From: Azoarcus sp. CIB
GTDB lineage: Bacteria > Pseudomonadota > Gammaproteobacteria > Burkholderiales > Rhodocyclaceae
Length of the DNA stretch: 64,000 bases
Direction: 5' to 3'
Assembly (NCBI RefSeq): GCF_001190925.1
Contig: NZ_CP011072.1
Coordinates: 4,526,001-4,590,000, forward strand
Shown here: piece after piece, positions 84-11,973 of the stretch
Position numbering within the stretch: position 1 is the stretch's first letter
Layout of the letters: each line of letters starts with the position of its first letter
Made by a program: the position numbers and the translations under genes
Notes under the pieces: model-generated
What the model was told of the DNA's origin: nothing
Databases searched by the model: none
What the model saw: only the letters and a program-made list of their open reading frames with translations

Positions 84-1148
84 TCAGTGCGGGAAGGGCC
101 ACAGGCGCATCTTCTGCTTGCCAATGCTCCACAGCTTCGCCAGCCCGTGCGGCTCGGCGATCAGGAAGAACACGATCAGCGCCCCGAAGATCATGTGCAC
201 GAGGTGCGAGGTGGTCGCCGTCGACAACGGGATGCCGAACCAGTGCGGCACCTGGTCGAGGATGATGGGCAGGACCACGATGAAGGCCGCGCCGAAGAAG
301 GCGCCCATGATCGATCCCAGCCCGCCGATGATGACCATGAAGAGCAGCTGGAAGGAGCGGTCGATGCTGAATGCGGCCGGCTCCCACGCGCCCAGATGCA
401 CGAAGGCCCACAGCACGCCGGCGACGCCGACGATGAAGGAACTCACCGCGAAGGCGGTCAGCTTCGCGTACACCGGACGGATGCCGATCACTGCCGCGGC
501 GACGTCCATGTCGCGGATCGCCATCCACTGCCGGCCGGTGGCGCTGCGCGTCAGGTTCTTGGCCGCGAGCGCGAACACGCACACGACCGTCAGGCAGAAC
601 AGGTACTTCGCGACGGGCGACTCGATCGGCACGCCGAAGACGTTGAGGCCGGCGACACTGACGGAACCCGAGGTCGAGTTGTTCGTGAACCAGCTCACGC
701 GCAGGAAGGCCCAGTCGGTAAAGAACTGTGCCGCGAGCGTCGCGACCGCGAGGTACAGGCCCTTGATGCGCAGCGAGGGGATGCCGAACAGCACCCCGAC
801 CACGGTCGCCGTCAGCCCCCCGAGCAGCATCGCGACGATCAGCGGCATGCCGTCGATGCGCACCAGGAAGTTGTACGCCGCGTAGGCGCCCACCGCCATG
901 AAGGCGCCGGTGCCGAGCGAGATCTGGCCGCAGTAGCCAACCAGGATGTTCAGCCCTAGCGCGGCGAGCGCTAGGATCAGGAAGGGGATCAGCACGGCGC
1001 GGAACAAGTATTCCGAACCGGTCATCGGCATCACGACGAAGGCGACGAGGAGCAGCAGGCCGATCGCCAGGCGGTCCTGGGCGATGGGGAAAATCTGCTG
1101 GTCGGCCGCGTAGCTCGTCTTGAACTGGCCGTTTTCTCTATAGAGCAT
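84..1148 (-). CDS. livM: Branched-chain amino acid ABC transporter permease, LivM type
   Basis: This 354-residue inner-membrane protein has many hydrophobic segments and the family features of LivM permeases, including the conserved stretch LGLNILVGYCGQISLGTGAF near residues 63-82. With LivH it would form the transmembrane channel of a HAAT-family importer for branched-chain amino acids or, as often in this group, for aromatic or other carboxylic acids. It follows livH with a 30-base gap. The start is preceded by GGGAGAG. Neighbouring livG and a FAA1-type CoA ligase suggest uptake coupled to CoA activation, but the substrate cannot be read from the sequence. Confidence 0.9.
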   Translation of the reverse strand: MLYRENGQFKTSYAADQQIFPIAQDRLAIGLLLLVAFVVMPMTGSEYLFRAVLIPFLILALAALGLNILVGYCGQISLGTGAFMAVGAYAAYNFLVRIDGMPLIVAMLLGGLTATVVGVLFGIPSLRIKGLYLAVATLAAQFFTDWAFLRVSWFTNNSTSGSVSVAGLNVFGVPIESPVAKYLFCLTVVCVFALAAKNLTRSATGRQWMAIRDMDVAAAVIGIRPVYAKLTAFAVSSFIVGVAGVLWAFVHLGAWEPAAFSIDRSFQLLFMVIIGGLGSIMGAFFGAAFIVVLPIILDQVPHWFGIPLSTATTSHLVHMIFGALIVFFLIAEPHGLAKLWSIGKQKMRLWPFPH

Positions 1149-1178
1149 GTAGAAACTCTCCCGGGATGTGCCGCCGCG

Positions 1179-2108
1179 TCAGACGCGGTCGATGATTTTT
1201 TCGCCGAACAGGCCCTGCGGACGCACCAGCAGGAAGCCCAGCGCCAGGACGTAGGCGAACCAGATCTCGATGCCGCCGCCGAAGAAGGAACCGAGGTAGA
1301 TCTCCGACAGCTTCTCGCCGACGCCGATGATCAGGCCGCCGAGGATCGCCCCGGGCACCGACGTCAGGCCACCCAGGATCACCACCGGCAACGCCTTCAG
1401 CGCCACGAGCGAGAGCGAGAACTGCACCCCGAGCTTGGAGCCCCAGATGATGCCGGCGACCAGCGCGGCGAAGCCCGCGACCGACCACACGATCACCCAG
1501 ATGCGGTTCAGCGGGATGCCGATCGACTGGGCGGCCTGATGGTCGTCGGCCACCGCGCGCAGCGCCCGGCCGGTCGCGGTCTTCTGGAAGAACAGCGCCA
1601 GCGCCAGCACCAGCGCGGCGGAGATGAGCGCGGCGACGAGGTCCTCCTTGCTGATCAGGAGTCCGCCCTCGAACGTGCCTTCGAGGATCATCGCCGGATC
1701 CTTGGGCATGCCGACGTTGATGCTGTAGATGTCGTTGCCGAACAGCGTCTGGCCGAGGCCGTCGAGGAAGTAGCTGATGCCCAGGGTCGCCATCAGCAGC
1801 GTGATGCCTTCCTGGTTCACCAGCTTGGACAGGCACAGGCGCTCGATCAACCACGCAAGCACGATCATCAGCGCCATCGCGACGATGAACGCGAGCAGGT
1901 TCGCGAGCAGCAGGCTCTCGAAGCCCAGCCACTTCGGAATCCACTCGGCGAAACGCGCCATCGCGAGTGCCGCGAACAGCACCATCGCGCCCTGCGCAAA
2001 GTTGAACACGCCCGAGGCCTTGTAGATCAGCACGAAGCCGAGTGCGATCAGCGAATACAACATGCCGGCCATCAAGCCGCCGAACAAGGTTTCAAGAAAG
2101 AATCCCAT
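1179..2108 (-). CDS. livH: Branched-chain amino acid ABC transporter permease, LivH type
   Basis: This is a 309-residue polytopic membrane protein. The conserved LivH core is visible, for example the N-terminal MLYSLIALGFVLIYKASGVF stretch and the loop with GRALRAVADDHQAAQSIGI that contacts the ATPase. The start was placed at 2108, preceded by GGGAG. The open frame extends far upstream, but that part is out-of-frame antisense-like sequence over livG. It lies 14 bases downstream of livG and forms the second permease subunit of the same importer. No LivK or LivF gene is in the window; they may lie to the left. Confidence 0.9.
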   Translation of the reverse strand: MGFFLETLFGGLMAGMLYSLIALGFVLIYKASGVFNFAQGAMVLFAALAMARFAEWIPKWLGFESLLLANLLAFIVAMALMIVLAWLIERLCLSKLVNQEGITLLMATLGISYFLDGLGQTLFGNDIYSINVGMPKDPAMILEGTFEGGLLISKEDLVAALISAALVLALALFFQKTATGRALRAVADDHQAAQSIGIPLNRIWVIVWSVAGFAALVAGIIWGSKLGVQFSLSLVALKALPVVILGGLTSVPGAILGGLIIGVGEKLSEIYLGSFFGGGIEIWFAYVLALGFLLVRPQGLFGEKIIDRV

Positions 2109-2122
2109 TGCGAAGCTCCCGC

Positions 2123-2965
2123 TCAGTGCGACGTGCCGAGATAGGCACGGATGACATCCTCGTTGGCGCGCACCTCTTCGGGCACGCCGTCGCCGATCTT
2201 CTTGCCGTAGTCGAGCACGACGACGCGGTCGGAGATGTCCATCACGACCCCCATGTCGTGCTCGATGAGCACGATCGTCGTGCCGAACTGGTCGTTCACA
2301 TCGAGGATGAAGCGGCACATGTCCTGCTTTTCCTCGACGTTCATGCCCGCCATCGGCTCGTCGAGGAGCAGCAGGCTGGGCTCGGCAGCGAGCGCGCGGC
2401 CGAGCTCGACGCGCTTCTGCAGGCCGTAGGGCAGGGCGCCGACCGGCGTCTTGCGGATGTCCTGGATCTCGAGGAAGTCGACAATCTCCTCGACCTTTAC
2501 GCGGTGCTCGATCTCCTCCTTCTGCGCGCGGCCCCAGTACAACGCATGGGCGAGCAGGCCGCACTTCATCTTCAGGTTGCGCCCGGTCATGATGTTGTCG
2601 AGCACGCTCATGCCCTTGAACAGCGCGATGTTCTGGAAGGTGCGCGCGATACCCTGCGCGGCCGCCATGTGCGGCTCCATCCTGCGGCGCTCCTCGCCGC
2701 GAAACAGGATGCGCCCCTCCTGCGGATGGTAGACGCCGTTGATCACGTTCAGCATCGAGCTCTTGCCGGCACCGTTCGGGCCGATGATCGAGCGGATCTC
2801 GTGCTCGCGCACGTTGAAGCTGATATCGGTCAGCGCCTTCACCCCGCCGAAGGACAGCGAAATGTTCTGCAGGTCGAGGACCACGTCGCCGATGCGCCGC
2901 CCCCTCATTTGCGTCGACTCCTGCGTTTGGTCCTGCACTGCCTGCGGCATGTCGTTCATCATCAT
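2123..2965 (-). CDS. livG: Branched-chain amino acid ABC transporter ATPase, LivG type
   Basis: This cytoplasmic ATPase of 280 residues has a Walker A motif (GPNGAGKSS, about residue 58), a signature region (PYGLQKRVELGRALA) and a Walker B motif (LLLLDEPMAGM). The C-terminal extension ending in VIRAYLG is typical of LivG. It powers transport through LivH and LivM. Three consecutive ATG codons (2965, 2962, 2959) follow GAGGGGAGGGCG, so the exact start is uncertain by two residues. It begins 10 bases after the acyl-CoA synthetase gene, which argues for co-transcription with that gene. Confidence 0.92.
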   Translation of the reverse strand: MMMNDMPQAVQDQTQESTQMRGRRIGDVVLDLQNISLSFGGVKALTDISFNVREHEIRSIIGPNGAGKSSMLNVINGVYHPQEGRILFRGEERRRMEPHMAAAQGIARTFQNIALFKGMSVLDNIMTGRNLKMKCGLLAHALYWGRAQKEEIEHRVKVEEIVDFLEIQDIRKTPVGALPYGLQKRVELGRALAAEPSLLLLDEPMAGMNVEEKQDMCRFILDVNDQFGTTIVLIEHDMGVVMDISDRVVVLDYGKKIGDGVPEEVRANEDVIRAYLGTSH

Positions 2966-2975
2966 CGCCCTCCCC

Positions 2976-4952
2976 TCACGCCGCCTGCTTCGCCGCCTGC
3001 GGCGCGAAGGTCTTCACTTCCTCGATGCGCAGGTCCGCGCTGATGCGTCCCTCGCGCCCGTCCTCGTACTTCACGACGGTCTCGATGTGTTGCGTCTGCT
3101 TGCCCTCGAACAGCGCCTCGATCAGCTCCGCGTAGCGCTCGCTGACGAAGTTGCGACGCACCTTGCGCGTGCGGGTCAATTCGCCGTCGTCGGCGTCGAG
3201 CTCCTTGTGCAGGATCAGGAAGCGTTTGACCTGCGAGCCGCTCATCTGCGGATCGGCAGCAAGATCGGCGTTGACCTTCTCGACGCAGTCACGGATCAGC
3301 TCATACACCGCCGGCTGCGACGCGAGATCGGTGTAGCCGGAGTACCCCAGCCCGCGCCGCTCGGCCCAGTTGCCGACCGCCTCGAGGTCGATGTTGATGA
3401 AGGCGGTGACGCAGTCGCGGCCGTTGCCGAAGGTCACGGCCTCCTTCACATGCTGGAAGAACTTGAGCTTGTTCTCGATGTAGTTGGGCGCGAACATCGA
3501 ACCGTCGCTGAGCTTGCCGACGTCCTTGGCGCGGTCGATGATCTTCAGGTGGCCGTCCTCGTCGAAGTAGCCCGCGTCGCCGGTCATGAAGTAGCCCTCG
3601 GCGTTGATCGACTCGGCGGTCGCATCGGGGCGCTTGTAGTAGGCCTTCAGCAGCATCGGCCCCTTCACGAGGATCTCGCCGTTGTCGGCGAGCTTCACCT
3701 CGACGAAGGGCGCAGGCTTGCCGACCGAATCGAGCTTGATCTGGCCGTCCGGCTGCAGGCACACGTAGGCGCAGGTCTCGGTCTGGCCATAGAGCTGCTT
3801 GAGGTTCACGCCAATGGAGCGATAGAAGCGGAAGAGATCCGGCCCGATCGCCGCACCCGCGGTATAGGCCACGCGGATGCGACTCATGCCCAGCACGTTC
3901 TTCAGCGGGCCGTAGACCAGCAGGTTGCCGAGCGCATACTGCAGGCGGTCGCCCGCGGACACCGGCTTGCCGTCGAGGATGTCGGCCCCGCAGCGGCGGG
4001 CGACGTCCATGAAATGCGCGAAGAGCTTGCGCTTGAGCGCGCTCGCATCCTCCATGCGGATCATCACCTGCGTGAGCAGGTTCTCGAACACGCGCGGCGG
4101 AGCGAAGTAGTAGGTCGGGCCGATCTCGCGCAGGTCGGTCATCACGGTGTCGCCGGATTCCGGGCAGTTGATCGTGAAGCCCGCGACCATCGCCTGAGCG
4201 AAGGAGAACAGGTGGTCGCCCACCCAGGCCATCGGCAGGTAGGACAGGATGTCTTCCTGCTCGGTGAGCTTGTCGAAGCCCATCGCACCGGTCGCCGCGG
4301 CGATGAAGGCCGCATGGGTCTGGCATACCCCCTTGGGCTTGCCGGTCGTCCCCGAGGTGTACAGCATCACCGAGATGTCGTCGCTCGCCCCCTTGGCGAT
4401 CTCCCCGTCGAGGAAATCGGTGTGGTTGCGATCGTGGATGGCGCCCATCTCCTGCAGCTCGTCGAGGCCCTTCAGCATCGGCTGGCTGTAGTGACGCAGC
4501 CCGCGCGGATCGTCGTAGATCACGTGCTCGAGGAAGGGCACCTCGGGGTAGATCTCGAGCATCTTGTCGACCTGCTCCTGATCCTCGACCACGGCAAAGC
4601 GGATCTCCGCGTCCTGCAGCACGTAGGTCATTTCCGCAGCGACCGCGTCCTGATACAGCATCACGGGAATTCCGCCGAGGCACTGGCAGGCGGCCACCGA
4701 CCAGTACAGGCGCGGGCGGTTGTCGCCGATGATCGCGAGCCGGTCGCCGCGCTTGAAGCCCAGCTCCGCCAGCCCGCAGGCGATGGCGCGCACGTTGCGC
4801 GCGACTTCGGCCCAGCTGTAGGTCTGCCAGATGCCGAATTCCTTCTCGCGCATCGCGGGCCGGCCGGGTCGAACCGCCGCATGCTGCATCAGCAGCCGCG
4901 GAAAGGTGTCCAGGGCGGCCGCTTGCTCGGCCAGCCCATTCCTGTCGGACAT
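2976..4952 (-). CDS. AMP-forming long-chain acyl-CoA synthetase (FAA1-type)
   Basis: This 658-residue member of the ANL superfamily activates a carboxylic acid to its CoA thioester through an acyl-adenylate. The P-loop-like motif MLYTSGTTGKPKG and the later motif YFMTGDAGYFDEDGHLKIID are intact, with the A8-type RAKD following. Length and overall pattern match COG1022 (FAA1) enzymes rather than short acetyl-CoA synthetases. The start at 4952 is chosen because AAGGAGGAG lies just upstream; the longer open frame has no signal. Leading a liv-type operon, it probably activates the imported acid. Whether the substrate is fatty, aromatic or terpenoid cannot be decided here. Confidence 0.85.
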   Translation of the reverse strand: MSDRNGLAEQAAALDTFPRLLMQHAAVRPGRPAMREKEFGIWQTYSWAEVARNVRAIACGLAELGFKRGDRLAIIGDNRPRLYWSVAACQCLGGIPVMLYQDAVAAEMTYVLQDAEIRFAVVEDQEQVDKMLEIYPEVPFLEHVIYDDPRGLRHYSQPMLKGLDELQEMGAIHDRNHTDFLDGEIAKGASDDISVMLYTSGTTGKPKGVCQTHAAFIAAATGAMGFDKLTEQEDILSYLPMAWVGDHLFSFAQAMVAGFTINCPESGDTVMTDLREIGPTYYFAPPRVFENLLTQVMIRMEDASALKRKLFAHFMDVARRCGADILDGKPVSAGDRLQYALGNLLVYGPLKNVLGMSRIRVAYTAGAAIGPDLFRFYRSIGVNLKQLYGQTETCAYVCLQPDGQIKLDSVGKPAPFVEVKLADNGEILVKGPMLLKAYYKRPDATAESINAEGYFMTGDAGYFDEDGHLKIIDRAKDVGKLSDGSMFAPNYIENKLKFFQHVKEAVTFGNGRDCVTAFINIDLEAVGNWAERRGLGYSGYTDLASQPAVYELIRDCVEKVNADLAADPQMSGSQVKRFLILHKELDADDGELTRTRKVRRNFVSERYAELIEALFEGKQTQHIETVVKYEDGREGRISADLRIEEVKTFAPQAAKQAA

Positions 4953-5214
4953 ACCATCTCCTCCTTTGGTTTTTATCCTGCGTCTCCACCCGGCCGGATT
5001 TGTCCTTATCGGCTCCGGGGTCCGGCGCAATCGTGTGCGCCGCAGCGTCGGCGGCAGCATCGTTGCTACCGCTCGCGCTTTTGTGTGCGTGCAGTCTCGC
5101 AAGCCATGTTTGCGCAACTGTTTGTGAAATGTAGTGAATTGTTGCAGTCGTCCGGAACGCCTCCGCAACGGCCCGGATGCCGCGCCGCGGCGCCTTGCGC
5201 GCCGGGCCGTGGAC
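4953..5214. other. Intergenic region upstream of the acyl-CoA synthetase operon
   Basis: This stretch must hold the promoter of the minus-strand synthetase-liv operon. It contains an AT-richer part around 5105-5150 with the direct repeat GTGAAAT/GTGAATT, which could be an operator. No convincing -35/-10 pair or small gene was found. Confidence 0.3.
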
Positions 5215-5266: not shown

Positions 5267-7246
5267 TCAGCTGAAGAAACCGGTCACCACCAGCACCAGC
5301 AGCACGAGGCCGACGGTGATCAGCGTGAGGCCGAGGATCACCGAGCTGACATGCAGCTGGCGCGACGGCGCATCGACCAGGTACTTCTCCAGCTCGCCGG
5401 ATTCCACCAGGCGCTGGTAGTGCGCCGGATGCTCGCGCTGGAACTCCTCCAGCGACTGCGTGCCGGTGAACATCACCACGTCCGGCGGCGGCAGCTTGTC
5501 GGGGCGGAAGTGGTTGTTGAAGAAGTGCACCGTGAAGAGGAACACCGCCGCGAGGAAGGCTTCCTCGCCGTGCACCAGCGTGCCGACGTTGAACACCCAG
5601 CCCGGCAGGAAGCTTGCCGTCACATGCGGGAAGGCCAGCATCAGGCCGCTCCAGCCGATGATGTTCACACCCCAGAACACCGCCCAGTAGTCGAACTTTT
5701 CGAAGTAGGTCCAGCGGTCGAACTTCGGCTTCGGCCCCTTCCCGAAGAACCACTTGAACATGCCCACGCAGTCGGCGAGGTCCTTCCAGTTCGGGATCAG
5801 CGAATCCGGCCCGAACCAGCGGAACTTGCGATCACGGAGCAGGCGCGACATCACATACACGAAGTGGATCATGAAGATGCCGACGAAGAGCACGGCGGCG
5901 ACACGGTGGATGATGCCCATCACCTTCGGCCCGCCCAGCGCCGCGGCAACCGTGGGCGCCCACGCGCTGTCGGCGAACATCACGGTCGTGCCGGTCAGCA
6001 CCAGGGTCATCGTCACCAGCGCGAAGCTCAGGTGCGCGATGCGCCAGCCGCTGGCGAAGCGCACGAAGTGCTTCTCGGGAACAATGCCCATACCTTCGGT
6101 ACGCACGTGCGGCACGGCCTTGCGTTCCTTACGTTCCTTCCACTCGCGGTAGTACCACAGACCGCTGTGCAGCCAGAAGAACGCGAACACGCCGATCAGC
6201 AGCGCCTCCATGAATTTTCCGGTCACCCACATGCGCGGATATTTCTCGAAGTCGTGCGTGTTGGCATGCGGGCCGAAGGTCACGAAGCCGGCGGTCGCCG
6301 TGACCATGCCCGGTTTCTTGTCGTCGTGGCACTTCTGGCAGGTCTTCAGGCGGTTGTCCGGATGCACGCGCGACTTCGGATCGTCGCCCGCCTTGATGTT
6401 GTGGCTGCCGTGGCAGTCTGCACACTTGGCCGTATACACGAAGCCGAGGCGGTTCACCTGCCCGTGGTAGGTGTCACGATAGCTGTGCAGCTCGTCCTTG
6501 TGGCAGTCGCCGCAGGCGATCACGTTCTTGAGCTTGAACAGCTCCGACGACGAACTGCGGATCTCGTGCGTGGTGTGGCAGTCGATGCACACCGCGCCCT
6601 TGGGGTCGCCCTTGGCGGTGAGCTGACCGTGCACAGAGTCCGCCAGATCCTCCATGTGGTCCTCGTGACAGGACGTGCCGCAGCTCTCGGGGATGGTCAG
6701 GCGCCACAGGTCGCGCTCGGGCGTGCCGGCGGGCGGCACGGCGAAGTCGTGCGTAGCGTGGCACTGGTTGCACGCGGCCTTCGGACGGTCGGGATAATCC
6801 GCGTCCGGGCGGGCGTGGTACGACTCCTTGTAGGCCGCGATGTTCTCGACGACGACGCCCAGGCGCTCCTTACCGGCGGTCTGGTTGTTCTTCTTCGCCT
6901 CGTCCCACAGCTTCTCGTGGCAGCCGGCACAGTCGGGCTTCGCGGAACTGGCCGCTTTCTCGTGCTTTTCCTTCGCGTCGACGATGTCGGTGTGGCAAGC
7001 GACGCAGTCGAGCTTCGCGTGCACACCCTTCGCGACCTTTGCGGGGTCGACGGCGGGAAGGGCGACCTCTTCGCCTTCCGAATCCTCGATCTTGATTTCC
7101 GGCTTGCCCGCGGCGTGGCAGTTCAGACAGGTGGCGTTATCGAGCGCGGCTGGCGCGTCGCTGCCGGCCGCATGGCCCGCCAAAGGCCAGAGCAGTGCGG
7201 CAGACGCGACCGCCGCCAGCAGGCCCCGAATGTTGCTTGTTTTCAC
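5267..7246 (-). CDS. Inner-membrane multiheme cytochrome c fused to a cytochrome b-like domain
   Basis: This protein has 659 residues with a GTG start at 7246 preceded by GGGAG. After a Sec signal peptide (ending near HAAG, residue 28) come eight CXXCH motifs (first cysteines near 40, 81, 106, 159, 220, 245, 275, 303) plus one CX3CH motif (CGTSCH, 189). From about residue 344 there are roughly six membrane segments with histidines in hydrophobic helices (for example MGIIHRVAAVLF, FTVHFFNNH), as in cytochrome b561/FdhI-type quinol-reacting subunits. Inference: it exchanges electrons between the quinone pool and periplasmic cytochromes, the role CymA plays in Shewanella. It is the last gene of the operon with mtrB and mtrA. 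The function is inferred from architecture and context. Confidence 0.82.
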   Translation of the reverse strand: MKTSNIRGLLAAVASAALLWPLAGHAAGSDAPAALDNATCLNCHAAGKPEIKIEDSEGEEVALPAVDPAKVAKGVHAKLDCVACHTDIVDAKEKHEKAASSAKPDCAGCHEKLWDEAKKNNQTAGKERLGVVVENIAAYKESYHARPDADYPDRPKAACNQCHATHDFAVPPAGTPERDLWRLTIPESCGTSCHEDHMEDLADSVHGQLTAKGDPKGAVCIDCHTTHEIRSSSSELFKLKNVIACGDCHKDELHSYRDTYHGQVNRLGFVYTAKCADCHGSHNIKAGDDPKSRVHPDNRLKTCQKCHDDKKPGMVTATAGFVTFGPHANTHDFEKYPRMWVTGKFMEALLIGVFAFFWLHSGLWYYREWKERKERKAVPHVRTEGMGIVPEKHFVRFASGWRIAHLSFALVTMTLVLTGTTVMFADSAWAPTVAAALGGPKVMGIIHRVAAVLFVGIFMIHFVYVMSRLLRDRKFRWFGPDSLIPNWKDLADCVGMFKWFFGKGPKPKFDRWTYFEKFDYWAVFWGVNIIGWSGLMLAFPHVTASFLPGWVFNVGTLVHGEEAFLAAVFLFTVHFFNNHFRPDKLPPPDVVMFTGTQSLEEFQREHPAHYQRLVESGELEKYLVDAPSRQLHVSSVILGLTLITVGLVLLVLVVTGFFS

Positions 7247-7387
7247 GTTATTGCTCCCGTTTCTCGGCGCGACCAGCGCGCCGCAGACAAAATAAGGGGG
7301 CCGGCACGTCGCACGCCAATCTTCAGACGCGCAAGCGTCATATGTGCTCGTGGGCCCCCTGCCCGGCGACTCCCTGTCCCCGGACGA

Positions 7388-7411
7388 GACCGGGCCGATC
7401 GCGGCCCGGTC
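7388..7411. terminator. Hairpin between mtrB and the membrane cytochrome gene
   Basis: GACCGGGCC and GGCCCGGTC form a perfect 9-bp stem around a 6-base loop, starting 15 bases after the mtrB stop. There is no T tract next to it, so it may stabilise or process the transcript rather than end it. A second arm pair, GGGGGCC near 7350 and GGCCCCC followed by TTATTTT near 7296, could act as a weak terminator within the 179-base gap. Confidence 0.4.
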
Positions 7412-7425
7412 GTTGCTGCCTTGAA

Positions 7426-9591
7426 TCAGAATGCGTGCGAGAGCGTCACCGCAATCACGCGCGTTATCTGATCCGGATTCACAAGGACCTTCGTCCCGTC
7501 CGAGTAGGTCCAGCTCGACCACGTGTAGTCGTCCAGCTCGCGCCGGTCCCAGACGTAGTCTAAACGAATAGCCGTGGCCTTGGTCACTGCGTACTTCGCG
7601 AATAGCCGCAGGGTATTCAGGGTGTACTCGGTGTCCGGGAGAACCCCGGCGCCCTGACGGATCGACGAGAATCCCGGGCCCACGCGGGGTGATGCGAACG
7701 CCCCCTGATCCGCGTAGGAGATGTCGTACTGGTTCTCATCGCGGCTGTAGAGGTATTGCCCGCCCACCGACAGCTTCGAACTGATCTGCCCGTCGAAGCC
7801 GGCGCCCAAGGCATTGGAACTCAGCTTGAGGTCGGCGCCCCACGGCACGCAGGTGTTGGAAATCGAGGCCCCGTTGCACAGCGAATTGAACGTGCTGTTC
7901 AAGGACTTCTGCTCGATGTCGTTGGTGCTGTGCGAGTACCACATGTTCGCCTTCCAGCGGTCATTGAAGCGGTACGACGCATCGAGCGAGAACAGCTCGG
8001 AGCGCCCCTCGTTCAGACCGACGTCGAGCATGCGCGTCTTGTAGTCGTCGAGCGCGTACTCGTAGGCAAATTGCACGGACAGGGGATCGATGGGCATCCA
8101 GTCGACCATCAGCTTGAGCTTGTCGCGCTCGCGGTCGGAGAACTGCGTCGGCGCGGTCCAGTGCAGGCCGACTGCGTGGCCGTCATTCACCATGTTCGGC
8201 GTGGTGCCCCAGCTCGAGCCGTCACGCTCACTGTGCGCGAGCGTCACGCTGCCGTTGACCGTGTCACCGAGGGACTTGCGCACATCGACCCGGTAGGTGT
8301 TCTCGGTGATCTCGTCGCGGAACAGCTCGTCCATGCCTTCGTACTTCTTGAAGTCATAGTCGTAGCCGGCGGTCAGGTTGAATCCCTGCGGCAGGCGGTA
8401 GCTCGCCTCGAACTTGCCGCGATGCGTCTTCTGCGACTCGGGGTTGTTCTGCAGGATCGCGCCGCCGTGGCCCACGTCGACCAGGTAGTCGACCTTCGGC
8501 GTCCGGTCATCGCGATCCTCGTACGCCCACGATGCCAGCAGGCCGAGCTTGTCCGTGACACGCGAAGTCAGCGACCCGAACACGTTGGTCGTTTCGACCT
8601 TGCCGCCCAGGTCCGAGCGCTTCATGCCCGGGTAGTACGGCACGCGTGCGGAATTGGGCAGGAAGCTGTCGTCCTGCGTCGCGAAGCTCTTGCTGATCTT
8701 CAGGTTCGCGCGCGTGTCGCGGCTCCAGTTGTAGCCACCGGCGAGGTGGAACTGGTGTGCCTGATTGTCCGGCGCGAGCGACAGCGGGCTCATCTGCGTC
8801 GGGGTCGCAGAGGTCGCGACCGGGCTGCCTCCAAAGAGCCCCGCCGGGGTACCGTAATTGACGAACAGCCCCTTGCCCGCCTTGTTCTCGAAGAAGCTGC
8901 CGTAATACCCGCCCGAGACGTAGAACTTCTCGGTGGCGTAGTCGAGCGAGGCCTCGATCTGCTTGTGGTTCGAGTCGATCGGTTCGGGTGCGAACAGCTG
9001 GCCGACGAACCCGGCCGCGCTCGCGTTGGCGCCAAACAGGCGCTCGCCCTTCTTGTCCTCGTTCTTGAAGGTGACGCTCGCCTGCAAGCTCTTGCTGATG
9101 AACTTGGTGGCGGTGAGCGAGGTCGCGGTGCGCTCGGTCTTCAGGTCCTTGTCGTCGAAGCGGGTGCCGAGGTTGAGCGTGTCATGTCCGATGCCGGTCA
9201 CGCGCGTGGAGACCTCGAACGGCGCATAGCGGGGAATCTGGTTGTAGTCGATGCCCAGTTTCCAGTCGCCCTGCTGTTCGATCGACGCGCCGAACTCCTG
9301 CGTGCGCAGGCCCAGGTCGCGGCCCTCGATGCGCAGCCAGCGGCCCTCGTCGGAGCGGCGGATGACCTTCAGGTCGGCGCTGCCGTGAATGCCTTCATCA
9401 TTGATGCCGTAGTACTGGCGATAGAGCGGATTGACCTCGTTGAGGTGCTGCAGCTTGATGCTCGCTTCGGCAACGTTCGGGCTGATCAGCTCTGCGACTT
9501 CATCTTCCTGGGCGATGGCGGACGAGACAGGGAAGGCCAACGACACGGCCAGCGCGAGCACGGTCCGCTTGAAAACGCGATTGTTGTGCAT
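7426..9591 (-). CDS. mtrB: MtrB/PioB-family outer-membrane beta-barrel protein
   Basis: This is a 721-residue protein with a signal peptide (cleavage near SSAIAQE, residue 28) and a long series of alternating amphipathic strands ending in a C-terminal phenylalanine (SHAF), the usual outer-membrane assembly signal. Length and pattern match decaheme-associated barrels of the MtrB/PioB family (Shewanella MtrB is about 700 residues). The barrel sheathes the decaheme cytochrome so electrons can cross the outer membrane. The start at 9591 follows AGGGAGAAG. It begins 19 bases after mtrA. The mature N-terminus lacks the CXXC pair known in Shewanella MtrB, as in other family branches. Confidence 0.88.
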   Translation of the reverse strand: MHNNRVFKRTVLALAVSLAFPVSSAIAQEDEVAELISPNVAEASIKLQHLNEVNPLYRQYYGINDEGIHGSADLKVIRRSDEGRWLRIEGRDLGLRTQEFGASIEQQGDWKLGIDYNQIPRYAPFEVSTRVTGIGHDTLNLGTRFDDKDLKTERTATSLTATKFISKSLQASVTFKNEDKKGERLFGANASAAGFVGQLFAPEPIDSNHKQIEASLDYATEKFYVSGGYYGSFFENKAGKGLFVNYGTPAGLFGGSPVATSATPTQMSPLSLAPDNQAHQFHLAGGYNWSRDTRANLKISKSFATQDDSFLPNSARVPYYPGMKRSDLGGKVETTNVFGSLTSRVTDKLGLLASWAYEDRDDRTPKVDYLVDVGHGGAILQNNPESQKTHRGKFEASYRLPQGFNLTAGYDYDFKKYEGMDELFRDEITENTYRVDVRKSLGDTVNGSVTLAHSERDGSSWGTTPNMVNDGHAVGLHWTAPTQFSDRERDKLKLMVDWMPIDPLSVQFAYEYALDDYKTRMLDVGLNEGRSELFSLDASYRFNDRWKANMWYSHSTNDIEQKSLNSTFNSLCNGASISNTCVPWGADLKLSSNALGAGFDGQISSKLSVGGQYLYSRDENQYDISYADQGAFASPRVGPGFSSIRQGAGVLPDTEYTLNTLRLFAKYAVTKATAIRLDYVWDRRELDDYTWSSWTYSDGTKVLVNPDQITRVIAVTLSHAF

Positions 9592-9610
9592 GGTTTCTTC
9601 TCCCTGACTC

Positions 9611-10618
9611 TTAACGCCAGAAGCGCAATGCCTTGGAGGCATTCGCCGGACTGTTGCTGCCGTGGATCTCGGTGTGGCAGTTCAGGCAGGCACGGCCCTG
9701 AGTGATGCCGACCGAGTTGAGGGCATTGTTCTGCACTGCTGCTTGACCGGGAATGACAACCCCATTCACGTTGCGGCTGAGATTCGTGTTCTCCGCGACA
9801 CCCGGAATCGTGCCGAGGTGGTTGGCGGGGTCATGGCACTGCTGGCACAGGAAGGGCGGACGGGTCTTGAGCATCGCATCGGCGACGGTGCCGTGCGGGT
9901 TGTGGCAGTTGGCGCAGTCTTCGGTGACCGGAGCATGGTTATGCACGAAGGGACCGCGCTTCTCCGCGTGGCAGGTGTAGCAGGTCGCGTTGGTGCTGTC
10001 CTTCACGAGCAGCTTCGGACCAGTGGTGCCGTGCGGGTTGTGGCAGTCCGAGCAGGACATCTTGCCTTCGGGAATCGGGTGGTGCGACGGACGGTTGACC
10101 TGCGCGCGCTGCTCCTTGTGGCAGGCGAAGCACACTTCGGCCTGGGTGCGCTTGTCGCGGACCTTGTCGTCGGCGGCGTGCGTGTCGTGGCAGGAACTGC
10201 AGGCAACGTCGCGGCGCTCGTGCGTGCTGCCTGCCCACAGGTGGCGCTTGGGATCGGCCTGATGACAGGACAGACAGGCGGCGTTGCGGTCGGCAACGGG
10301 CGTCGCGGACTGCTTGTCGAAGGTACGGTCGGGCTTGGGCGGCTTGTCGCTGCCCTTGTAATTCACGTGCTTGTCGCTATCGCCGTGGCAGTCGGTACAG
10401 GTCGGCGTGCGGCCGTCGGCGCGCGTGCCGTGTTTCGTCTTGCCGATGTGCAGCACGCCGGGGGCGTCCGCCTCGTCGTGACAGGACGTGCATTTGGCAT
10501 CACCGGCGAGAACGATGTCCTTGGGCGCCTCCTTGGGCGCATCCGCGGCGTACACCGCCCCGGAGCAGAGGCTGCCGATACAGGCCAGCACTGCAAGCAA
10601 GCTTCGCATTTTTTTCAT
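9611..10618 (-). CDS. mtrA: Decaheme c-type cytochrome of the MtrA/DmsE/PioA family
   Basis: A Sec signal peptide (ending AVYAA, residue 25) is followed by exactly ten CXXCH motifs, with first cysteines near residues 43, 74, 115, 140, 163, 189, 213, 235, 258 and 311. Total length (335) equals that of known MtrA proteins. The protein would be a periplasmic heme wire that inserts into the MtrB barrel. The start at 10618 is preceded by AAGGGGG. It lies between the small cytochrome c gene and mtrB on the same strand. No outer-surface cytochrome of the MtrC/OmcA type is present nearby, so direction of flow (iron oxidation or extracellular reduction) is open. Confidence 0.93.
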   Translation of the reverse strand: MKKMRSLLAVLACIGSLCSGAVYAADAPKEAPKDIVLAGDAKCTSCHDEADAPGVLHIGKTKHGTRADGRTPTCTDCHGDSDKHVNYKGSDKPPKPDRTFDKQSATPVADRNAACLSCHQADPKRHLWAGSTHERRDVACSSCHDTHAADDKVRDKRTQAEVCFACHKEQRAQVNRPSHHPIPEGKMSCSDCHNPHGTTGPKLLVKDSTNATCYTCHAEKRGPFVHNHAPVTEDCANCHNPHGTVADAMLKTRPPFLCQQCHDPANHLGTIPGVAENTNLSRNVNGVVIPGQAAVQNNALNSVGITQGRACLNCHTEIHGSNSPANASKALRFWR

Positions 10619-10687
10619 GTTACCCCCTTGTTACGAAACGTCATTGCCGCACCGCCCAGCCGGGCGGTGCGATTCAGGCCACGCTGC

Positions 10688-11035
10688 TTACTGCGAAAGG
10701 ATCCACTCCATGAGGTTCTTGAGCTCGGCCTCGTTCTTGGTGTTGATGACTTTGTGCTCTTCTTCGGTACCGTCTTCGAGCTTCACCTTCGGGCCGGTGG
10801 TGATGTTCTTCTTCATCTTCTCGAAGCCTTCGGCTTCCTTGCCCTTGTACTTGGCGGCGATCTTCTTGTACGAGGGGCCTTTCTTGGTCTTGTCGATGGC
10901 GTGGCACTTGAAGCAGTCGTTGTCCTTCGCGAGCGACTTGGCGGCGTCGGCATCCACGGCGTAGGACGAGGACGAGGCGAGGATCGCGGCGGTGGCGGCC
11001 ACGAGCAGCGACACGCGGTTGAGACGGAATTGCAT
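10688..11035 (-). CDS. Small monoheme class I cytochrome c
   Basis: The 115-residue precursor has a signal peptide (ending SSSYAV, near residue 26) and one CFKCH heme motif near residue 41. A C-terminal helix (LKNLMEWILSQ) is of the type seen in cytochrome c551/c552. The distal ligand is probably a methionine such as that in FEKMKKNI. It would shuttle electrons in the periplasm between the membrane cytochrome and MtrA, or to a terminal oxidase. It is the first gene of the operon and starts after AGGAGAG. Confidence 0.85.
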   Translation of the reverse strand: MQFRLNRVSLLVAATAAILASSSSYAVDADAAKSLAKDNDCFKCHAIDKTKKGPSYKKIAAKYKGKEAEGFEKMKKNITTGPKVKLEDGTEEEHKVINTKNEAELKNLMEWILSQ

Positions 11036-11129: not shown

Positions 11130-11172
11130 CATATATCGGACAGGGTTTAAATTGCGTGTAGGAAAATTCCTA
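11130..11172 (-). promoter_or_regulatory. Candidate activator-dependent promoter of the cytochrome operon
   Basis: On the minus strand the inverted repeat TAGGAATTTTCCTA (11172-11159; arms TAGGAA/TTCCTA) lies upstream of a -10-like TATATG at 11135-11130. With a start point near 11123 the centre of the repeat is at about -42, and the -35 hexamer CACGCA is poor, as expected for a class II activated promoter. The arms resemble heptads bound by NarL/FixJ-family regulators such as BvgA and RcsB, and such a regulator is encoded directly upstream. Binding is inferred. Confidence 0.5.
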
Positions 11173-11322: not shown

Positions 11323-11973
11323 TTACACGTCGGTCGACTTCACCAGGTGGTGAGCGACCGCATAGCGGATCAGCTCGGAGCTGTTCGTCATCGCCATCTT
11401 CTGCAGGATGCGCGTCTTGTGCGTGCTGATGGTTTTGACGCTGAGCGACAGCTCGTTGGCGATGTCGGTGAGGCCCTGCCCGAGCACGAGGCGGTGGAAG
11501 ATCTGGTATTCGCGATCCGACAGGGTGGTGTGCGGCAGCTCGCTCGCGGCGGGCATGAGGCCGCGTGCGATCAGCTGGGCGACGGTGTCGCTCACGTACA
11601 CGCCGCCACGCGCCACGCGGCGGATCGCTTGCACGAGCAGTTCGGCGTCGCTCTCCTTGGTCAGGTAGCCCGACGCACCGGCGTGCAGCGCGCGCACCGC
11701 ATACTGCTCCTCGTGGTGCATGCTCAGGATCAGGATGGGGAGCTTGGGTTTCTCGTCCCGGATCAGGCGGATGAGATCGAGACCGCTGCGCCCGGGCATG
11801 GAGATGTCGAGCACGATGACGTCCCACTCCTGCTCGCGCACGAGCTGCAGGGCCTCGTTGCCGTTGGCCGCCTCGCCGCACACCGCGAGGTCTTCCGTGT
11901 CGGCGAGGATCTGCTTCAGGCCGTCGCGGATGATCGCGTGGTCGTCGGCGAGCAATACCCTGAGTTTTTCCAT
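11323..11973 (-). CDS. NarL/FixJ-family response regulator
   Basis: This 216-residue protein has a receiver domain with the acidic pair in LLADDH (residues 9-10), phospho-acceptor in VIVLDISMPG (near 55), serine in LILSMH and lysine in YLTKES. It is followed by a LuxR-type helix-turn-helix (LSDREYQIFHRLVLGQGLTDIANELSLSVKTISTHKTRIL). It is encoded 13 bases after the sensor kinase gene, its obvious partner, and 287 bases upstream of the cytochrome operon on the same strand. It is therefore the best candidate regulator of that operon. The 11174-11322 gap holds no further gene. Confidence 0.9.
   Translation of the reverse strand: MEKLRVLLADDHAIIRDGLKQILADTEDLAVCGEAANGNEALQLVREQEWDVIVLDISMPGRSGLDLIRLIRDEKPKLPILILSMHHEEQYAVRALHAGASGYLTKESDAELLVQAIRRVARGGVYVSDTVAQLIARGLMPAASELPHTTLSDREYQIFHRLVLGQGLTDIANELSLSVKTISTHKTRILQKMAMTNSSELIRYAVAHHLVKSTDV

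Follow-up and report, generated by a model that had tools for sequence, protein, structure and literature searches.

By what route could Azoarcus sp. CIB move electrons between its quinone pool and the cell surface, and what would decide when that route is expressed? The question is raised by a window of 64,000 nucleotides from this bacterium (contig NZ_CP011072.1, positions 4,526,001 to 4,590,000), in which four consecutive genes on the minus strand, mtoD, mtoA, mtoB and mtoC (D, A, B and C in gene orders below), occupy positions 5267-11035 of the window. These genes very probably form an mtoDABC operon in which MtoC would exchange electrons with the quinone pool, MtoD and/or direct contact would pass them to MtoA within the MtoB barrel, and the barrel would open to the cell surface; control of the operon most likely lies with an adjacent histidine kinase and response regulator, acting at a palindrome upstream of mtoD. 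The operon comprises the following features:

10688..11035, minus strand: mtoD-like gene for a monohaem class I cytochrome c, 115 residues, one CXXCH motif
9611..10618, minus strand: mtoA/mtrA gene for a decahaem cytochrome, 335 residues, ten CXXCH motifs
7426..9591, minus strand: mtoB/mtrB/pioB gene for an outer-membrane barrel, 721 residues, ATG at 9591, no CXXCH motif
5267..7246, minus strand: mtoC gene for a nine-haem c domain joined to a six-helix FdnI/HydC-like cytochrome b, 659 residues
5216..5242, minus strand: intrinsic terminator directly 3' of mtoC, AAGGGGAGG-GCGA-CCTCCCCTT then T7

The conduit proteins and the MtoC fusion

All four genes that had been proposed from the sequence (a monohaem cytochrome, a protein with ten CXXCH motifs, an MtrB/PioB barrel and a fusion of haem motifs with membrane helices) were found in their places. 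They are separated by gaps of 69 bp (mtoD-mtoA), 19 bp (mtoA-mtoB) and 179 bp (mtoB-mtoC), and mtoC likely starts at the GTG at 7246, ahead of which lies GGGAG. The terminator behind mtoC folds at -27.2 kcal/mol (z -2.63) and is more stable than 198 of 200 shuffled sequences. A pattern scanner reported no minus-strand terminator between mtoD and mtoC; because the same scanner also overlooked the terminator after mtoC, its silence carries little weight. Within the mtoD-mtoA gap, a hairpin was noted at 10647-10671 (CGCACCGCCC-GGCT-GGGCGGTGCG, without a run of T), and was discarded as a real structure since the 69-base gap is no more stable than shuffles of its composition (z -0.84). A promoter scan returned one site, the same number as in shuffled sequence, and was likewise set aside.

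The decahaem protein scored 281.6 bits against TIGR03508 (DmsE family; cut-off 192.2), and the barrel scored 445.8 bits against PF11854 and 350.4 bits against TIGR03509, both above cut-off. The closest structure to MtoA in the PDB was chain A of 6r2q (E 2.3e-67), and the sole PDB match of MtoB was chain B of the same entry (E 1.3e-30). We take 6r2q to be the MtrAB complex, although the label of chain A in the file reads 'Cystathionine beta-synthase', and presume that TIGR03508 covers MtrA-type proteins generally. Both profile and structure searches are therefore in line with the MtrAB-type conduit first proposed, in which, as in the Mto pathway, a decahaem cytochrome of the MtrA/MtoA family adjoins an MtrB/PioB barrel. 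The expectation that no outer-surface cytochrome takes part also held: across the host genome (a single contig of 5,257,030 bases), the MtrC/OmcA profile TIGR03507 had no match above cut-off, and one of its two weak matches was part of MtoC. The cluster differs in this from MtrCAB, with its extracellular decahaem MtrC/OmcA.

The closest PDB structure to the monohaem protein was 4xxl (E 2.1e-31), the MtoD of Sideroxydans lithotrophicus, which is bis-histidine-ligated and has a potential of +155 mV according to the available portion of PMC4412085. In an alignment of 78 family rows, His94 was present in 78 of 78 and no methionine was conserved, in keeping with a bis-histidine MtoD; by sequence and by this ligand signature, the protein fits MtoD.

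MtoC, a name reportedly given by Shi et al. 2012, was examined in an alignment of 60 sequences (the window protein, 58 from a scan of named genomes, and a second copy from the host genome). N-terminal to the membrane domain lie eight CXXCH motifs and one CX3CH motif, and all nine are kept in 60 of 60 sequences, the fifth being CX3CH in 53 and CX2CH in seven. Nine further histidines in the haem domain are invariant (76, 95, 144, 166, 206, 227, 261, 282 and 327), one for each haem, so that all nine c haems are probably bis-histidine-ligated. An AlphaFold2 model built with 59 sequences (mean predicted local distance difference test 78, predicted template modelling score 0.69) contained six long C-terminal helices (337-373, 399-423, 440-471, 511-538, 549-579 and 629-658), so that the nine motifs and about six helices originally counted in this protein both stand. 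These helices also hold six histidines shared by all 60 sequences (360, 405, 447, 559, 574 and 579), a number sufficient for two b haems. Of two others, His 461 is kept in 57 sequences and His 606, which lies outside the helices, in all 60.

The top Foldseek match of the model was chain C of 1kqf, the gamma subunit of Escherichia coli formate dehydrogenase N (E 1.9e-3, template modelling score 0.71 by target length), which is the relation reported for CbcL in the available part of PMC6295460. Two results weigh against this assignment of the membrane domain: the structural similarity is modest, with no Foldseek hit reaching E 0.001, and the score against the formate dehydrogenase gamma profile TIGR01583 was 28.9 bits, far under the cut-off of 115.85. 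PF01292 gave 29.9 bits against 30.1, and no PDB sequence matched at E 0.001.

The family of such fusions, CbcL/MtrH/MtoC, is defined in PMC6295460, in the portion available, by 3-23 CX2CH motifs in the c domain, CbcL itself having nine motifs, six helices and a HydC/FdnI-like cytochrome b. The window protein has both the N-terminal multihaem c domain and the six HydC/FdnI-like helices with conserved histidines. A quinone-type multihaem-cytochrome b fusion thus fills the position of CymA, as had been supposed, and it is of the nonahaem MtoC type.

Known clusters and the arrangement of relatives

The original prediction also held that the layout differs from the known Mtr, Pio and Dms layouts; as a claim of a new layout, this fails. 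The portions of the literature available describe clusters that unite mtoC with mtoA, mtoB and mtoD in Dechloromonas aromatica RCB and in Gallionella capsiferriformans, as well as mtrH or mtoC of seven further species in clusters with mtrAB or mtoAB (PMC6295460); the ES-2 protein of G. capsiferriformans is named nonahaem MtoC and the D. aromatica operon mtoABCD (PMC5566968). They further report that mtoC and mtoD adjoin mtrCAB, an arrangement almost confined to one betaproteobacterial group (PMC8805035), and mention MtoC elsewhere (PMC4245776 and PMC10734462). The present cluster matches mtoABCD of D. aromatica RCB and ES-2 in gene content and description, with MtoA, MtoB, MtoD and MtoC in one cluster, and differs in that its host is an Aromatoleum. 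Within Dechloromonas, the C protein of D. hankyongensis (locus L062) is 73% identical to that of the window. No report of iron oxidation by Aromatoleum turned up, no search having been aimed at it.

Other known systems share only parts of this arrangement. CbcL of Geobacter sulfurreducens also has nine N-terminal c-haem motifs and six C-terminal helices of a HydC/FdnI-like cytochrome b, at about 35% identity to MtoC (PMC6295460, available part), but has different partners, being assigned to the Pcc pathway. Rhodoferax ferrireducens has a CbcL-type fusion (MtrH) clustered with mtrAB in its mtrH-mtrABC locus, whereas mtrC and two cymA genes are also present there (same source). The mto cluster of S. 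lithotrophicus ES-1 shares MtoA, MtoB and MtoD, and at the inner membrane it has the tetrahaem NapC/NirT protein CymA/ImoA rather than MtoC; the genome of Azoarcus sp. CIB encodes three NapC/NirT proteins, all elsewhere.

Gene order was compared in the best 80 of 410 relatives from named genomes, a selection that biases the scan to close kin. The nearest named loci were those of Aromatoleum toluolicum (C 95% identical) and Azoarcus sp. Aa7 (91%), followed by other Aromatoleum. In the window, C is the gene that follows B. The order D-A-B-C, with all four genes on the same strand and uninterrupted by any other labelled gene, recurs in 20 of the 80 loci, 12 of which also carry the kinase-regulator pair upstream (krDABC). 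Twelve loci show D and C behind an EB_dh gene without A or B (EB_dh-D-C), and the remainder show D-C-A-B, C-D-A-B, D-C and other arrangements, some ending at a contig edge. The prediction was therefore borne out in part: the fusion falls within a family that had already been described, while its partner, MtoDAB, is the one expected, and the order is kept in a quarter of the loci compared.

A tree of 94 C proteins (quick LG+G4 analysis with SH-aLRT, an approximate likelihood-ratio test, as the only support; proteins under 600 residues left out; 15 loci beyond the named-genome scan included) placed the window protein inside a set of 21 rows (SH-aLRT 99). Apart from the window itself, this set holds 16 rows with A and B and four whose neighbourhoods lie out of view. 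Eleven of the 12 EB_dh-D-C rows fall in the sister set, mixed with other arrangements, and one elsewhere. In view of the tree and the loci, the C-D pair is a module whose partners vary, the window version lying on the MtoAB-linked branch. A search of 101 related genomes found C matches in 27, in a few cases only weak ones.

Several of these observations speak against a fixed link of MtoC to the conduit. Ten more loci, visible for more than 5 kb on both sides, show neither A nor B; many relatives of C have no MtoAB neighbour, so that an outer-membrane conduit is no general companion of C; and the second C of the host genome also follows an EB_dh gene.

Further electron-transfer genes were noted in the host genome. 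Four MtrB barrels and four decahaem partners scored above cut-off genome-wide, arranged as the D-A-B-C cluster of the window, two D-A-B sets and one A-B pair. The three pairs outside the window lie at 3587069, 1247706 and 2127848 (L044, L045 and L046), two of them with an MtoD-like gene, and neither MtoC nor the palindrome described below was found in the sequence fetched around them. The second MtoC copy, 53% identical, lies at 539933-541900 (L047:7886-9913), directly downstream of an EB_dh (PF09459) gene and without MtrAB. Two eleven-haem proteins of 912 and 922 residues (open reading frame lengths) are encoded at L048:1141-3879 and 7123-9891, near 371-380 kb of the genome, and an eight-haem protein with TPR repeats at L049:4514-6811, directly behind a sulfatase-family gene. 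Downstream of mtoC, at 84-5132 of the window, are genes for an AMP-binding ligase and a branched-chain amino-acid type ABC (ATP-binding cassette) transporter; each of the four krDABC loci that bear the name Aromatoleum or Azoarcus (L050, L051, L052 and L054) has relatives of the ligase and of the ATPase behind its operon, and the other eight krDABC loci have none above 60 bits there.

The regulator pair and the palindrome upstream of mtoD

Directly upstream of the operon and on the same strand lie a response regulator and a histidine kinase, a pair that is kept beside the operon in relatives:

11159..11172, no strand assigned: palindrome TAGGAATTTTCCTA, 14 bp, proposed site of the response regulator, 123 bp ahead of the start codon of mtoD
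11323..11973, minus strand: NarL/FixJ-type response regulator, 216 residues, PF00072 and PF00196
11987..14131, minus strand: sensor histidine kinase, 714 residues, with dCache, PAS, HisKA_3 and HATPase_c domains

In the 80 loci (1.29 Mb), the pattern TAGGA-N4-TCCTA occurs as 20 copies in 19 loci, and every copy stands just upstream of D. After removal of seven loci without D and of locus L056, in which the kinase pair lies downstream of C and which has no palindrome, the 400 bp or so ahead of D contained the pattern in 18 of the 18 loci that have the regulator pair upstream and in one of the 54 others. In that single exception (L053), the contig has just 145 bases ahead of the reading frame of D, leaving the region of the regulator pair out of view. 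Among 11,264 palindromic combinations of half-site and spacer, TAGGA-N4-TCCTA alone occurred in all 18 loci, the next reaching 11, 8 and 4; the runners-up with 11 and 8 are shifted versions of the same pattern. The 18 loci come from Aromatoleum/Azoarcus, Accumulibacter, Pseudothauera, Dechloromonas, Gallionellaceae and Comamonadaceae, and are related rather than independent. Downstream of the palindrome, the window and some Aromatoleum/Azoarcus loci share an inverted repeat (AAACCC/GGGTTT), which was rejected as a candidate since it is absent from most others. The palindrome itself may resemble BvgA-type heptads.

The pairing was also sought in the 101 related genomes, where 49 palindromes were found in 37. 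Using 70 response-regulator rows, with the contigs carrying a palindrome chosen by eye so that the figures are lower bounds, at least 25 of the 49 sit 16-275 bp downstream of a homologous response-regulator gene, ten of these at mto loci and 15 outside them. Thirteen of the non-mto sites were fetched; profiles detected no MtoA-D in them, two of the stretches ending soon after the site, and at three (L180, L181 and L183) the next gene is a clade II (Sec-dependent) nosZ. These non-mto sites lend independent support to the pairing of regulator and site.

Other counts tell against it. TAGGA-N4-TCCTA occurs once in the host genome (5.26 Mb), a number that is not unusual; a reversed control pattern also occurs once there, and many relatives have it at least as often as the palindrome, so that only the position of the palindrome is informative. 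Two more response-regulator homologues in the host (47% and 45%) have no palindrome nearby, nor do some close homologues elsewhere (G059, 64%; G019, 65%).

On balance, and judged from conservation, the operon is most likely controlled by this kinase-regulator pair, which would act at the palindrome ahead of mtoD. We further consider it rather probable that they form a dedicated switch, in which a dCache-PAS kinase and a NarL-type regulator would act at one genomic site. As the same regulator-site pair is reused in related bacteria before other operons, clade II nosZ included, switching of the conduit may form part of the anaerobic respiration of denitrifiers. No report of such control of mto genes was found in the open-access literature, outside which most subscription papers lie, and the terms 'two-component', 'histidine kinase' and 'response regulator' are absent from the main texts of PMC5566968 and PMC8805035.

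Proposed electron path, direction of flow and meaning

In the proposed path, the FdnI-like cytochrome b domain of MtoC would exchange electrons with the quinone pool, in one direction or the other, and the nine periplasmic c haems of the protein would carry them along. Monohaem MtoD and/or direct contact would join MtoC to MtoA, whose chain of ten haems, threaded through the MtoB barrel, would reach the cell surface. The MtoD step may be wrong: the available part of PMC13390432 (2026) reports that ES-1 MtoD interacted with neither MtoA nor ImoA, yet can carry electrons between CymA and MtrA in Shewanella. That study does not bear on contact between MtoC and MtoD, because ES-1 has CymA/ImoA instead of MtoC.

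Two directions of flow were weighed. Export, with MtoC as a quinol oxidase passing electrons from quinol to extracellular acceptors such as Fe(III), Mn(IV), humics or electrodes, comes close to an even prospect. It accords with membership of the family of Geobacter CbcL, a proposed quinol oxidase, and would be of obvious use if Azoarcus sp. CIB is the obligate heterotroph that a paper title calls it; against it, the cluster type was named from Fe(II) oxidisers, and the haems of ES-1 MtoA (+30 to -350 mV) lie below MtoD (+155 mV), which favours inward flow (PMC4412085, available portion). Uptake, with Fe(II), reduced humics or a cathode as the electron source for the quinone pool, for example for denitrification, is plausible but held tentatively. 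The gene content is that of mtoABCD in Fe(II) oxidisers, the same ES-1 potentials favour transfer from MtoA to MtoD, which is inward, and the regulator-palindrome pair also precedes clade II nosZ in three relatives; however, ES-1 MtoD did not interact with MtoA, and the nosZ link is known from relatives and was not looked for in the host genome. As far as the available part of PMC6295460 goes, no sequence feature separates the two directions, the family holding one proposed quinol oxidase and proposed quinone reductases, which counts against export too.

It is doubtful that MtoD alone is the partner of MtoC, in a quinol:cytochrome c oxidoreductase or its reverse with MtoAB as an optional addition. 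D stands directly upstream of C without A or B in many loci, including the 12 of 80 with an EB_dh gene, but in the tree set of the window all 16 rows with a visible neighbourhood have A and B, four being unseen. A dimethyl sulfoxide- or iodate-type conduit, suggested by DmsE being the best curated family of MtoA, is highly improbable and was rejected, since unlike DmsEFAB the locus has no DmsA, DmsB or other DMSO-reductase-type subunit among 12 neighbouring proteins scanned (84 to 27670), its conserved neighbours being the regulator pair, D and C.

The mechanism of the original prediction is thus likely right, and its claim of novelty wrong. The mtoDABC locus is a well-conserved Aromatoleum example of the MtoC-type route; the gene set itself has already been described in iron-oxidising relatives, and what looks unreported is the putative circuit of regulator and palindrome. 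The EB_dh-D-C and D-C loci indicate that the MtoC/MtoD module also occurs without an outer-membrane conduit, which bears on the question of MtoD's partner. The kinase, regulator and palindrome together offer a handle on when such conduits are expressed, and could reveal the direction in which electrons flow.

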